A stretch of DNA of 7,083 bases from positions 4,220 through 11,302 of the forward strand of contig CAMYNZ010000278.1 of assembly GCA_947259865.1 (NCBI GenBank), written 5' to 3'. Position 1 is the stretch's first letter; each line of letters starts with the position of its first letter. The position numbers were made by a program, and so were the translations under genes. The stretch comes from an uncultured Desulfobacterales bacterium. Lineage in GTDB: Bacteria; Desulfobacterota; Desulfobacteria; Desulfobacterales; G020354645. Shown here in pieces: positions 1,771 through 7,083 of this stretch. The notes under the pieces were generated by a model. It was not told where the DNA came from. It did not search any database and saw nothing but the letters and a program-made list of their open reading frames with translations.

Positions 1771-1989
1771 TCACGACCCACCCACTCCATAAGCATCCAT
1801 GAGAAAGTCCATATCACTTTGAGAATATGTCTCCTTGGGATTTTTCTTTACCTCTTTGGGATGCTCAACCTCTTCAATCATCACCTCTGGGGCTTGTTCC
1901 TTATAATACTGATTGACCGCGGGCTTTTCAAAAAGAGCAAGCAACGAGATCAAAACGATGATACTTATGATCAATATGATATATCTCAT
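1771..1989 (-). CDS. Small single-span membrane protein, function unknown
   Basis: This 72-residue protein is not assigned to a family. Residues 1-20 form one strongly hydrophobic segment (MRYIILIISIIVLISLLALF), read either as a membrane anchor or an uncleaved signal. It is followed by an acidic and lysine-rich tail containing EVMIEEVEHPKEVKK and a C-terminal SDMDFLMDAYGVGGS. Its ATG overlaps the TGA of the Nudix gene as ATGA, which implies translational coupling and supports it being a real gene although it lacks its own Shine-Dalgarno site. The tail would be cytoplasmic or periplasmic depending on orientation, which the sequence does not settle. One alternative is that the overlap arose by a frameshift that cut the Nudix C-terminus; the soluble charged tail argues that the small protein is now an independent product. 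Confidence 0.6.
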   Translation of the reverse strand: MRYIILIISIIVLISLLALFEKPAVNQYYKEQAPEVMIEEVEHPKEVKKNPKETYSQSDMDFLMDAYGVGGS

Positions 1990-2489
1990 AATGATGGGTT
2001 GATCTCTTTTTTATCAATTAAGGCCGGAATTGATTTCAAAGGAACGTTTATAATTTCGATGTCTTCGCCTTCATCGGGACTGGATTTGCTGACCTTTTCG
2101 GCATCCCGGGCCACAAAAAAGAAGCATTGATTGGTCAGCACGGCAGGCTGAGGATAGCATTCTCCGAGAAAATCGAATTTTAAGGCCCGATAACCGGTTT
2201 CTTCTAAAAGCTCCCGTTGGGCCGCCACCTCCGGGCAATCATCTTCAGGGTCCACCAGACCGCCGGGCAATTCCAGACATACCTGCTCGATCCCATGCCG
2301 ATATTGACGCACCATAATCACCTCTTCATCCCGGGTCAGAGGTAAAACGAGTACCCAGGCCGGAAACCGGAGTGCCAGAACATCACTGATCACGCCCGTC
2401 CTGGGCGAGCGCACCTGCTTTTTTTGCACCTGTAAAATTTGATAATCGTTAACCAGCTCGCGTTTTAGAATTTCCCACTTCTGGATCAT
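1986..2489 (-). CDS. Nudix hydrolase, ADP-ribose pyrophosphatase type
   Basis: This 167-residue Nudix protein probably hydrolyses ADP-ribose or a related nucleoside diphosphate derivative to AMP plus a phosphosugar. The Nudix box spans about 76-100, with GGLVDPEDD then RELLEETGY; Glu93, Glu96 and Glu97 are the expected metal ligands. The spacing between the glycine and the RE pair is one residue longer than the strict GX5EX7RE pattern, a variant seen in some ADPRase relatives. VRSPRTG (26-32) and VRQYRHGIEQVCLELPGG (60-77) are also typical of this subfamily. The ATG at 2489 is chosen because AAGGAA precedes it at suitable spacing. A longer open frame to 2609 crosses the upstream inverted repeat and is unlikely to be translated. 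The C-terminus ends at EINPSL, where relatives usually continue for one more helix, so it may be slightly shortened. Confidence 0.88.
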   Translation of the reverse strand: MIQKWEILKRELVNDYQILQVQKKQVRSPRTGVISDVLALRFPAWVLVLPLTRDEEVIMVRQYRHGIEQVCLELPGGLVDPEDDCPEVAAQRELLEETGYRALKFDFLGECYPQPAVLTNQCFFFVARDAEKVSKSSPDEGEDIEIINVPLKSIPALIDKKEINPSL

Positions 2490-2538
2490 AAAGATTTTTC
2501 CTTTTTTAGGTATTTTAGGGATTTCAGAGACCGGGGTG

Positions 2539-2557
2539 TTTTTTTTAAGACAAGATG
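2539..2557 (+). repeat. Left arm of 19-bp perfect inverted repeat
   Basis: T8 followed by AAGACAAGATG is the exact reverse complement of 2707-2725. Outside the perfect part, similarity continues for about 15 bases (2524-2538 against 2726-2740), nearly all differences being transitions. The outer end lies about 35 bases upstream of the Nudix start codon. Confidence 0.85.
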
Positions 2558-2639
2558 AACACTCAGGTGTTTCTAAATGGCAAAAGGTTGCTCCCGCTTG
2601 GAAAGGCAAACGACGGTGTTAGTTATTGGGAGAGTAAAT

Positions 2640-2758: not shown

Positions 2759-3706
2759 TCACTTTCTCTGGGAGAGGATTTTGGCCATCATCAATCCGAT
2801 ACCCATTGGATGCATGTCTTCGGACTTTAATTTTCCCAGGGTATCCACAAACGCCTTGGCCGGCGGCGAAAGTACCTGGCCTTTAAGATAGGCAATGCTG
2901 ACATCCAGATAAACTTTATTACCTTTTAGCGGAACTGCGGCCAATTTTTTATCACCCAGCTCTGCCGCCACCGCTTCCCTTACCACAAAGGAAACCCCCT
3001 CTCCGCGCTGCACCAATTGTTTGATAAATTCCGTGTTGCTGGTTTCCATCAGGATATTGGGCGTGCAGGTATCTTTTCTAAATAACTGTTCAACCAGTTT
3101 CCGGGTGCCCGAGCCTTTCTCTTTCATGATAAAGGGTTCTCGGGCCAGTTTCGCGAAATTGACCGTTTTTTTATCCGCCAGAGGGTGGTCGGGCGCCACA
3201 ATGACGGCCATTTCTTCCCGGCTGAAAGGGAAAAAGTTGACCCGGGGATTGTCTTCGGTTTTGGCGATAACAGCCACTTCAATTTTAAAATCAAGCAAAC
3301 TGTGGATCATATCCAGTGAGCTGCCTTCATTTAATTGAATTTTTATATTCGGATAGTTCTGGTGAAAAGTCGTGATCATGGTGGGCATAAAATAGCGCGC
3401 ATAGGCCTTGGTTGTGCCAAGGCTGAGCACTCCCCGCTTGAGTTCCCGCATATCATCGATGGCATTTTCTATTTCTTTTTCATACTTGAAGATGGTCTCG
3501 GCAAACTCAAATAAAGACCTGCCTTCGTCGGTCAGGTAAATTTTGCGCCCTTTTTTTTTAAAAAGTTTTAAGTTGCAGTATTCTTCGAAAGACTTCACCT
3601 GGGCCGTCACGGCCGGCTGGGTGATAAAAAGCTCACCGGCGGCCCTGGTAAAATTCAGATTCTTGGCAGCGTGATAAAAGACCCTGAGCTGGTTAAAATT
3701 TAACAT
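2759..3706 (-). CDS. LysR-family transcriptional regulator
   Basis: This 315-residue protein has the full LysR length. The N-terminal winged helix-turn-helix (about 1-60) reads FNQLRVFYHAAKNLNFTRAA, then ITQPAVTAQVKSFEE, then the wing ending LTDEG. The effector-binding domain follows from about residue 92, with GTTKAYARYFMPTMITTF in its first half and KEKGSGTRKLVEQLF near its hinge. The style is closest to the CbbR/CysL branch, but the ligand is unknown. It is transcribed divergently from the phenylphosphate-synthase-like genes across 321 bases containing two dyads, the classical arrangement for a LysR regulator controlling its neighbour and itself. An aromatic substrate or pathway intermediate as coinducer is inference. 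No strong Shine-Dalgarno sequence precedes the ATG at 3706. The last 15 or so residues (GIGLMMAKILSQRK) are an unremarkable basic tail. Confidence 0.93.
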   Translation of the reverse strand: MLNFNQLRVFYHAAKNLNFTRAAGELFITQPAVTAQVKSFEEYCNLKLFKKKGRKIYLTDEGRSLFEFAETIFKYEKEIENAIDDMRELKRGVLSLGTTKAYARYFMPTMITTFHQNYPNIKIQLNEGSSLDMIHSLLDFKIEVAVIAKTEDNPRVNFFPFSREEMAVIVAPDHPLADKKTVNFAKLAREPFIMKEKGSGTRKLVEQLFRKDTCTPNILMETSNTEFIKQLVQRGEGVSFVVREAVAAELGDKKLAAVPLKGNKVYLDVSIAYLKGQVLSPPAKAFVDTLGKLKSEDMHPMGIGLMMAKILSQRK

Positions 3707-4020: not shown

Positions 4021-4027
4021 AATGAGA

Positions 4028-5887
4028 ATGGCAGACCAAGATACAGGCAGATTTCCAGACCCGCACGAATTTCAGACGCCACCGGAACTTGAAGGCTGGG
4101 AAGAAATGTATCCTTCCCACCACCTTTTCTCCCAGGACAGAGCAGAATGGGAAAAAGGTCAATTCTGGTATCAGGACAAAATTCACGCCCCGGAGCCCAT
4201 GCCGCCGTTGGATTTAATCTTCCAGGAAGCATGGCAAATCTCCCTTTCCCAGTACACCACGCGCGTATTTTGCATACCACCGGCCCAGGGAATCGCGCAA
4301 AGAATGGTCGGATGTTACATGTACATTTGTGCCATCCCGCCGCCGCCGGAGGAAATCATCGGGGAAAAAGCGGCCCTGTTTGAAAAACGCGTGTTCTATG
4401 TATTTGAGCACTATGATGAGCTGTGGGACAAATGGCTGTCTAAATTTAAAGCTCTTGGTCATGAGATGGCCGCAGTTAAAATTCCGAGTGAGTTACCCAA
4501 ATTTGTACCCGAAGACCAGGTTATTCCGGCACCCACAGGCTGTTATGCCAGTTATGACCTGATCGAGGCCTTTGACAAGCTGGTCAACCAGATGTTCAAG
4601 GGCTGGCAATACCACTTCGAGATGCTCAACCTGACCTACCTGGCCTACCTAATGTTCGCTGATGTGACCCGTAACCTCTTTCCGGGTATCAGTGAAAGTG
4701 CCATCGGCAAGATGGTCGCCGGTGCCTATGTTTCGATGTTCCGTCCCGAAGAGGAGCTTTGCCGACTTGCCAGACTGGCCGTTTCGGAAAGCGGCGTAGC
4801 GGATGTCCTTAAAAGTGATGCCAACGCAGACCAGAAAATCGCTGAGCTTCAAAAATCATCGGAAGGAAAATATTGGCTGGATGAGTTTGAAAAGGCCAAG
4901 GACCCTTGGTTTTACGTATCATGCGGCAGCGGCTGGTTTCATCACGAAGGCAGCTGGCTTACCAATTTAGACATCCCTTACAGTTATATCAAAAGTTATG
5001 TGGAAAGAATAGAAAAGGGAGAGACCATCGAGCGGTCTTTGGATGAAATCGAGAAGCAAAGAGACGAAATCGTTACCGAATATCGCAAGTTGATTAAAAC
5101 CGACGACGACCGCAAGGCTTTCGACAATGCTTACAACACCATCAGAACCATATACCGATATGCAGAAGATCATCTCTTCTGGGTTGAGCACTGGTTCCAC
5201 ACCATCTGGTTCGATAAAATAAGAGAATTGGGCAGCGTTCTGGTCGACAATGGAATGTTGAATGAGGTAGACGATATATTTATGTTTAATCGCTACGAGA
5301 TTCCGCAACTTCTGACCGAGGTGGCCACCGGCTGGGCTTTGGGTGTGGGAATACCGATGCGCAGCGAAAGTTATAAAAACAAGGCTGCCAAACGTAAAAA
5401 AATCCTTGCTGCGGCCGAAAAATGGAATGCTACGCCGGCTTTAGGAGTTCCGCCTGAAGAAGTGGCCGAACCATTTACCATTATGCTTTGGGGCATCACC
5501 ACCGACAAAGTCAAAGAATGGCTCAAGGGCGTTGAAGGGCCATCAGGCGGAGATGTCTCTGAAATCAAAGGATTTGCTGCTTCGGCCGGTATTGTCGAAG
5601 GCCCGGCCCGGGTGCTCAAACTTCTCAAAGACATTGTAAATCTGCAACCGGGTGAGATTCTGGTATGCCCCTCTACCAATCCATCCTGGGCACCTGTATT
5701 TACAAATATTAAAGCAACGGTCACTGACATCGGTGGACTGACCAGCCACGCAGCAATCGTCTGCCGGGAGTATGGTGTGCCGTCGGTAACCGGAACCGGC
5801 GTAGCGACCTCAGTTATCAAAACCGGTGATATTTTGAAAGTTGACGGTGACACCGGGGTTGTCGAAATCGTCAAAAGAGCAGGATAA
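4028..5887 (+). CDS. ppsA: Phenylphosphate synthase-like subunit A (phosphohistidine subunit)
   Basis: This 619-residue protein ends in a PEP-utilising mobile domain (about 515-613). That domain contains [15 protein letters not shown] and the motif [19 protein letters not shown], in which His574 is the phosphorylated residue. The first 510 residues are a helical domain (with [17 protein letters not shown] near 46-62) that I take as the acceptor-binding part. The ATP-binding domain is absent here but encoded by the next gene, and the PEP/pyruvate barrel of PEP synthase is missing. In Thauera phenylphosphate synthase, a roughly 70-kDa subunit carries the catalytic His (residue 569 as I recall) and a roughly 40-kDa subunit binds ATP, converting phenol and ATP to phenylphosphate, AMP and phosphate. 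Size, His position and gene pairing agree well. Other hydroxylated acceptors remain possible. The symbol is the phenylphosphate synthase name, not that of PEP synthase. Confidence 0.7.
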
Positions 5888-5950
5888 TCAATTTACGAGG
5901 TTTTTCTGAAAAGCATTACCCTTTATCGTAACTCTCGTCATGTAAATTGA
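5888..5950 (+). other. Inverted repeat just after the ppsA-like stop
   Basis: TCAATTTAC (5888-5896), immediately after the stop codon, is perfectly complementary to GTAAATTGA (5942-5950). The pairing can resume after a five-base bulge (GAG with CTC). Inside, TTAC and GTAA near 5916-5931 can close a small inner hairpin. It may form the base of an RNA structure upstream of the stronger stem-loop. Confidence 0.45.
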
Positions 5951-5961
5951 GCATTCATTCT

Positions 5962-5991
5962 GAAACCCCTTCCCTAAAGGGAGGGGGTTTC
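5962..5991 (+). other. Strong 13-bp stem-loop between the ppsA- and ppsB-like genes
   Basis: Bases 5962-5974 (GAAACCCCTTCCC) pair with 5979-5991 around a TAAA loop, with one G-U pair, and weaker pairs can extend it outward. No T tract follows on either strand, so it is not a standard intrinsic terminator. It could be a processing or mRNA-stabilising element, or a partial terminator that sets the ratio of the two subunits, or a genome-wide dispersed repeat. Confidence 0.75.
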
Positions 5992-6006
5992 GGGTGGATG
6001 GGTATT

Positions 6007-6014
6007 GAAAGAGG
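6007..6014 (+). promoter_or_regulatory. Ribosome binding site of the ppsB-like gene
   Basis: GAAAGAGG lies five bases before the ATG at 6020 and 16 bases after the stem-loop. It supports the start MDYILDFEKLDKNS, which gives the usual short lead into the GGKNASLGEM motif. Confidence 0.6.
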
Positions 6015-6019
6015 CAGAC

Positions 6020-7083
6020 ATGGACTATATCCTGGATTTTGAAAAACTGGATAAAAATTCAATTCCCATCGTCGGTGGGAAAAATGCCAGTCTGGGTGAG
6101 ATGATCAAAACTGATATTCGGGTTCCGCCCGGATTTGCCGTAACCACCGATAGCTATTTATTATTTATTACCGAAGCCGGAATCAAAGATAAGATTTTAG
6201 ATATCGTCTCGGATTTAAGTCCCGATGACGTGGCGGCTCTCAACCAGGCCAGTGCCGACGTGCAGGAATTGATCAAAAACACGGCGATACCCGAGGCTGT
6301 GAAAAAGGCCATTACGGACGGGTATGCCCGATTGTGTGAAAAATGCGCCGTTGAATCTGTTCCCGTGGCGGTTCGTTCCAGTGCCACCGCTGAAGATCTG
6401 CCAACCGCCAGCTTTGCAGGCCAGCAGGATACCTACCTCTGGATCCAGGGAGCCAATCAGGTTATCACCAAGGTTCAAGATTGCTGGGCCAGTTTGTATA
6501 CTCCCCGGGCTATCGCCTACCGCAACAAAAACGATTTCCCCCATGAAAAAGTACTCATCAGTGTTGGGGTGCAGAAAATGGTCAACTCAAAAGCAGCCGG
6601 TGTAATGTTTACGATTAACCCGACTAATGGAGATATATCCAAAGTGGTCATCGAGGGCAGCTGGGGACTGGGGGAAACCGTGGTTTCCGGATCCGTCAAT
6701 CCGGATAAATTTGTGGTTGATAAGGTGATGCTGGAAATTAATGAAAGGACCATATCCACCAAACACATAGAATGTGTTTACGATCTGGACAAAGGGGAAA
6801 CGGTCGACGCGGATGTGGCTGATGAGAGACAGTGCACCTGCTGTCTGGCGGATGATGAAATAAAAGCACTGGTAAAAGCCGCTAAAAATATCGAAAACCA
6901 CTATGACCGGCCAATGGATATTGAATGGGCTATTGATAAAGATATCTCTTTTCCGGAAAACATGTTTATTGTCCAGGCGCGCCCCGAAACCGTATGGAGC
7001 CAGCAAAGGACGAAATCGGTCATCGGCGGCAAAACCGGTCGTCAGCTTTTGATGGAACAGGCCATGAAACGTATCAAAATTCC
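6020..7083 (+). CDS. ppsB: Phenylphosphate synthase-like subunit B (PPDK ATP-binding domain), partial
   Basis: The first 354 codons are in the window; the end lies beyond it. The protein is a PPDK/PEP-synthase N-terminal ATP-grasp domain with all landmarks: GGKNASLGEM (19-28), VPPGFAVT, VAVRSSATAEDLP (116-128) followed by SFAGQQDTYL, AAGVMFTINP (192-201), EGSWGLGETVVSG (212-224), MDIEWAID (299-306) and VQARPETV (318-325). It should transfer the beta-phosphoryl of ATP to the histidine of the upstream subunit, releasing AMP and phosphate. PEP synthases end this domain near QARPE and continue into the mobile domain. Here the next 30 residues do not yet resemble that domain, and the upstream gene already supplies it, so a stand-alone subunit of about 40 kDa is expected. 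A longer fusion cannot be excluded. The 132-base gap to the ppsA-like gene contains two RNA structures. Confidence 0.78.
   Translation, partial: MDYILDFEKLDKNSIPIVGGKNASLGEMIKTDIRVPPGFAVTTDSYLLFITEAGIKDKILDIVSDLSPDDVAALNQASADVQELIKNTAIPEAVKKAITDGYARLCEKCAVESVPVAVRSSATAEDLPTASFAGQQDTYLWIQGANQVITKVQDCWASLYTPRAIAYRNKNDFPHEKVLISVGVQKMVNSKAAGVMFTINPTNGDISKVVIEGSWGLGETVVSGSVNPDKFVVDKVMLEINERTISTKHIECVYDLDKGETVDADVADERQCTCCLADDEIKALVKAAKNIENHYDRPMDIEWAIDKDISFPENMFIVQARPETVWSQQRTKSVIGGKTGRQLLMEQAMKRIKI

Follow-up and report, generated by a model that had tools for sequence, protein, structure and literature searches.

Which reaction is served by a pair of genes that looks like a phosphoenolpyruvate (PEP) synthase divided between two proteins? 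Such a pair, genes A and B, lies towards the end of a 7,083-nucleotide stretch of contig CAMYNZ010000278.1 (positions 4,220 to 11,302; assembly GCA_947259865.1) from an uncultured Desulfobacterales bacterium, which was analyzed as a whole and is called the window here. An earlier note, made from the letters alone, had proposed a phenylphosphate synthase of anaerobic phenol degradation, and this proposal proved largely right in view of the missing PEP/pyruvate barrel, the family matches of the acceptor domain and the UbiD genes of relatives. We conclude, with a probability of roughly 0.85, that A and B form a two-component phenolic dikinase of the phenylphosphate synthase kind, with phenol as its most likely substrate, that feeds carboxylation by a UbiD-family enzyme.

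Domain architecture of the pair

Gene A encodes 621 amino acids from the ATG at 4022, or slightly fewer from an in-frame ATG at 4028, and its sole Pfam match at E <= 0.001 is PF00391 (PEP-utilizers; residues 542–612). A helical acceptor domain is followed by the swivel domain with its expected catalytic histidine, H576, and the predicted fold resembles rifampin phosphotransferase (RPH) across most of the length of A (mean predicted local distance difference test score 72; pocket details are not trusted). The earlier comparison with an RPH cut in two is borne out by this fold, and the acceptor domain matches the RPH and PRK08296/phenol-dikinase families, not another phosphotransferase family. 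RPH itself differs in being one polypeptide with an antibiotic as substrate, and is 18–20% identical in full-length alignments. In two-component phenolic dikinases an acceptor domain of RPH fold precedes a phosphohistidine swivel domain at the C-terminus, and a conserved glycine-rich motif ends in the catalytic histidine; A has both features. Conservation is far beyond chance: at least 1443 proteins match at E <= 0.001 among 7997 candidates scored, and the 120 matches listed are 83–95% identical.

Gene B, best started at the ATG at 6020 (preceded by GAAAGAGG), supplies the separate downstream ATP-grasp protein that had been described together with the phosphohistidine domain of A; PF01326 (PPDK_N) is its sole Pfam match. 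At the window's last full codon B has reached residue 354, and its closest aligned kin (L003 and L045) have 355 and 356 residues. A PEP/pyruvate barrel was not found in A or B, either among the Pfam matches or in the alignment of B, to near-complete length, with five relatives (L003, L045, L036, L069 and Azoarcus). Because B is almost complete, if it ends as the aligned relatives do, no barrel is to follow in it, and the absence that had been claimed from its visible part holds. A separate ATP-grasp protein without the barrel is likewise what characterizes two-component phenolic dikinases.

These data also bear on whether the pair arose when an ordinary PEP synthase or pyruvate phosphate dikinase, whose swivel and ATP-grasp domains it shares, broke into two genes. 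We rejected this extremely improbable explanation, as the barrel is missing, the acceptor domain matches RPH and the split is conserved: the A–B pair persists across relatives from several phyla, with B mostly 353–361 amino acids long. This length was called for 47 of 67 genes of the B cluster (the window's included); six are shorter (five at contig ends and one, in L052, inside its locus), and twelve of 364–440 amino acids probably reflect upstream start calls. Two further members, of 803 and 805 amino acids, lie next to A on the minus strand (in L031 and L025, respectively) and are perhaps true PEP synthases.

Gene company and pathway genes in relatives

A scan of genome contigs with A matched 105 stretches, 100 of which encode a relative, and the best 80 of these 100 (62–90% identity) were used as loci. 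Most are labelled as Deltaproteobacteria, Desulfobacterales or Desulfobacteraceae metagenome assemblies, with Marinimicrobia, Chloroflexi, Archaeoglobaceae and others among them. We distinguish close loci (the 47 of L001–L048 in which A was called) from 31 more distant ones; cluster names rest on one representative per gene cluster. Gene calling and clustering yielded a repeated order, i.e., a divergent LysR gene, A, B, UbiD, a response-regulator-like gene, AMP ligase, UPF0261, PAC_bac and UbiX. Among close loci, B adjoins A in 33 of the 39 with at least 400 bp downstream, the divergent LysR gene adjoins A in 24 of the 39 with at least 1.2 kb upstream, and UbiD occurs somewhere in 27 of the 31 with at least 3 kb downstream. 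The 17 close loci with at least 8.5 kb downstream contain UbiX (14/17), UPF0261 (14/17), the response-regulator-like gene (9/17), AMP ligase (9/17) and PAC_bac (7/17), with a NUDIX cluster member in 4/17 and an HcrA-like gene in 1/17. Of the more distant loci, 25 of 28 have B next to A, and 11 of the 21 with at least 3 kb contain UbiD. The UbiD neighbour in L003, the one representative checked, passes the cut-off of the phenylphosphate carboxylase beta model. Of the downstream genes that the earlier note had proposed to look for, the UbiD-type carboxylase is present in relatives, but none of 11 relatives' genomes has ppsC next to the pair (Azoarcus PpsC query, E <= 1e-8; the control was found); proteins 25–32% identical to the query lie elsewhere in 7 of the 11. 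PpcG passed its cut-off in none of the 11 (weak matches in two), and did so in the Azoarcus plasmid control. Both marks of the Thauera-type operon, PpsC beside the pair and PpcG over its cut-off, were accordingly not found in these 11 genomes. A neighbourhood with phenylphosphate carboxylase beta (UbiD) and UbiX, which would mark the reduced phenylphosphate synthases of sulfate and iron reducers, is seen in the relatives; the window stops short of where it would lie.

By homology to HpeHI and PpsAB, B would bind ATP and phosphorylate H576 on the swivel domain of A, which would ferry the phosphate to the acceptor domain; there a phenol, most likely phenol itself, would be phosphorylated. A phenylphosphate carboxylase of the UbiD family, whose cofactor UbiX would make, may then yield 4-hydroxybenzoate (the genes for both lie near the pair in relatives), and ligation to CoA followed by dehydroxylation would lead to benzoyl-CoA. 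The same genes presumably follow the window's own end, and its host, judged from relatives only, may be a sulfate reducer.

Pathway genes in the genomes of 12 relatives are broadly consistent with such a route. TIGR02724 (phenylphosphate carboxylase beta) passed its cut-off in nine, and 6-oxocyclohex-1-ene-carbonyl-CoA hydratase, which opens the ring in the benzoyl-CoA pathway, in eight; in 14 control genomes these models and that of HcrA (4-hydroxybenzoyl-CoA reductase alpha) gave sub-threshold matches (in 9, 11 and 5 genomes, respectively) and none over a cut-off.

Several observations weigh against a phenylphosphate synthase feeding UbiD. The window stops inside B, so that its own downstream genes lie beyond, and UbiD is absent from the other four of the 31 close loci (L001, L011, L024 and L031). 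TIGR02724 stays below its cut-off in two of the 11 genomes that match it (G004 and, as a split copy, G012), the hydratase does not pass in 4 of 12, and HcrA passes in none of 12, with sub-threshold matches in 11 (best per genome 318–919 bits; cut-off 995). The genome of L001, the closest relative (G001), has neither a TIGR02724 match nor a close match to B. Finally, the family model NF006153, whose cut-off is passed by an A gene in 45 of 297 sampled genomes of Desulfobacterota (counted without a check of neighbours), is also passed in one of the 14 controls, Corynebacterium glutamicum, presumably by the cresol dikinase CreH, to judge from the accessible part of PMC12167813; the family name therefore cannot fix the substrate.

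A loss of B in L001 was considered and dismissed: the first codons of B run directly into 100 N (L001:12031-12130), probably an assembly gap or masked stretch.

Other company of the pair was seen in a few loci. The pair in L049, L050, L052, L059 and L066 is followed by an AIR-synthase-like gene (5/5), an MFS transporter (4/5) and a 370-aa-type protein (3/5; no family match for the copy scanned, from L053), with no UbiD on the available stretch, possibly another fate of a phosphorylated phenol. On two haloarchaeal plasmids (L082, Natrinema; L086, Haladaptatus) it lies beside ring-hydroxylating dioxygenase, aldehyde dehydrogenase, metallophosphoesterase and NUDIX genes, which suggests an aerobic archaeal pathway via an aryl phosphate.

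The UPF0261 (Tm-1-like) protein (e.g., L003:17467-18675) is a steady cluster member, and solved structures exist for its relatives (9mpy, Tm-1). Literature searches found no paper linking UPF0261 to phenol and carboxylase or to phenylphosphate carboxylase, and none joining Tm-1-like ATP-binding proteins with a PEP-utilizing enzyme in anaerobes; most subscription papers lay outside these searches, so that such a link may have been published.

Phenol among candidate substrates

The UbiD neighbour argues against a non-aromatic alcohol, which the earlier note had also considered. A dikinase of the same kind for another phenol (e.g., catechol, cresol or a lignin fragment), whose phosphorylated product would then be the substrate of the UbiD carboxylase, is a more serious candidate that we nonetheless consider unlikely. 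Characterized relatives differ in the phenol they take, and the range of HpeHI is broad according to the portion of PMC12167813 available. The window's clade is also a branch separate from the Azoarcus KH32C protein of a ppsABC-ppcBDAG-like operon, to which A is 42% identical: in a rapidly built tree, which has the six plasmid references on long branches and was used only for this split, the window stands beside L001, and together with 74 loci it forms a group of 75 rows (support 98) that excludes those references. Percent identities, used alongside the tree, are 40% to Rhodococcus and Rhizobium plasmid relatives, 39% to Thermomicrobium and 42–46% to two haloarchaeal proteins. One host (G003; CP070673.1, the 5.1 Mb genome of L013) carries as many as 26 UbiD-type and 27 HcrA-type matches, some of them fragments; no ring-opening hydratase passed the cut-off in that genome. 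Three points favour phenol instead: the L003 UbiD neighbour exceeds the phenylphosphate carboxylase beta cut-off, the closest specifically named protein among the matches listed (P0223; 63% identical, from an uncultured Desulfatiglans) is deposited as phenylphosphate synthase subunit A, a name given by annotation, and the gene company resembles the phenol cluster of Desulfatiglans anilini.

Activation of aniline instead of phenol, by a phenylphosphoamidate synthase, enters because D. anilini, a sulfate reducer, has a homologous PasAB pair for aniline (PMC7500099, as far as accessible). In published identities to Thauera Pps alpha, Pas alpha stands at 28% and D. anilini Pps alpha at 42%; the window's A, with its 42% to the Thauera-type Azoarcus protein, behaves like the phenol enzyme (Pas being compared by published identities only), and we regard the aniline pair as very improbable.

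With a phenylphosphate synthase as the preferred reading, the system most like it is the D. anilini cluster (PpsAB, PpcB, AMP ligase, UbiX), which has the gene set and split architecture of the window's relatives and, like them, lacks PpcG in what is accessible of PMC6114531. The relatives often have the divergent LysR, response-regulator-like, UPF0261 and PAC_bac genes in the cluster (a comparison seen from the relatives' side), whereas the D. anilini cluster carries the Hcr-type genes that are rare in their long-flank loci. The PpsABC-PpcBDAG systems of Thauera and Azoarcus have the same A/B architecture, and the Azoarcus operon also has PpcB and UbiX, but Azoarcus has a CBS subunit, PpcA, PpcD and PpcG as well (PpcA and PpcD were not searched for in relatives by models of their own) and a methionine where the window has Thr574. 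Of 79 clade rows, 75 retain this threonine, the pattern search having missed the motif in the remaining four, and residue 574 is methionine in the four bacterial plasmid references and threonine in the two haloarchaeal ones; it matches the regulatory threonine of PEP synthases, as described in the available part of PMC12167813. The two-component HpeHI/CreHI dikinases, on the same partial account, are two proteins with the same domains and presumably the same phosphohistidine relay; the Rhodococcus and Rhizobium plasmid relatives, taken to be of this kind from their neighbours, adjoin oxidation or biotin-carboxylase genes and not UbiD.

In the parts of the literature accessible to us, D. anilini and Geobacter are already reported without PpcG (PMC6114531; PMC7500099), PpsAB, PpcB and the UbiX-like PpcY form a core common to nitrate, sulfate and iron reducers and syntrophs (PMC5946492), and homologues of these enzymes are known from a single marine cell related to Desulfatiglans (PMC6129605). 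Because these features were published before, the finding correctly identifies a system that was already known, with nothing unusual except minor points such as the kept UPF0261 gene and a recurring A–B hairpin. Uncultured Desulfobacterota thus gain a well-supported case in which phenol is likely to be activated anaerobically, and a gene set, UPF0261 included, is named as candidates in sulfate reducers. For these organisms, which have little energy to spend, a route that consumes up to four ATP equivalents is puzzling (PMC6114531, accessible part).

Spacer hairpin and other features of the window

The hairpin predicted in the window's A–B spacer (Table 1) has a z-score of −4.0, with 0 of 200 shuffles as stable, and of −5.3 in a 60-shuffle run on a slightly shorter stretch. 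Hairpins of differing sequence recur in bacterial A–B spacers of 35–300 nucleotides (z below −3 in 25/47, the window's included), compared with 45/227 other same-strand spacers of the same loci (Fisher p 1.1e-5, a value that is too good because the loci are related) and 0/5 archaeal A–B spacers. A special role is opposed by the UbiD–AMP ligase spacers, 5/8 of which show z below −3, and by spacers for which one or both flanking genes lie outside the named cluster, 24/142 of which do so as well. We read the A–B hairpin as a putative transcript-shaping element. A broader and rather doubtful idea is that the most widespread anaerobic phenol activation would be a reduced system that differs from the Thauera type, with the threonine kept in PpsA, one UbiD subunit replacing the four-subunit carboxylase, UPF0261 as a working part and a ppsA–ppsB hairpin setting unequal subunit amounts.

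Table 1. Positions of the genes and other elements in the window.
Feature	Position	Strand	Basis or remark
Gene A, PpsA-like subunit	4022–5887	+	Acceptor domain ~1–510, phosphohistidine swivel domain ~511–621; Pfam, fold, alignment
His576 codon, motif GGLTSHAA	5747..5749	+	Expected catalytic His, by homology to HpeH H581 (PMC12167813, accessible part)
A–B spacer hairpin, strong	5952..6000	+	Predicted folding
Gene B, PpsB-like, lone ATP-grasp (PPDK_N)	6020..7083	+	Window end cuts 1–2 codons before expected stop
LysR-family regulator	2759..3706	−	Divergent from A; domain matches
NUDIX hydrolase	1986..2609	−	Domain matches
REP-associated Y1-type transposase gene	574–1584	−	Upstream of A

A cut acyltransferase gene also lies upstream of A on the opposite strand; no tRNA was found in the window, and Rfam gave no match at gathering thresholds. 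A NUDIX gene within 10 kb of the pair occurs on the Azoarcus, Natrinema and Haladaptatus plasmids too. The Y1-type transposase gene is flanked (538–591 and 1615–1701) by a 52-nucleotide repeat, inverted between its two ends, and by a direct 29-nucleotide repeat, an arrangement like that of a REP/RAYT-like element. The spacer at 2524–2740 has 34-nucleotide inverted arms and looks like a dispersed element, because an inverted, 75% identical copy of it stands in L001 (L001:12131-12338), directly after the run of N.
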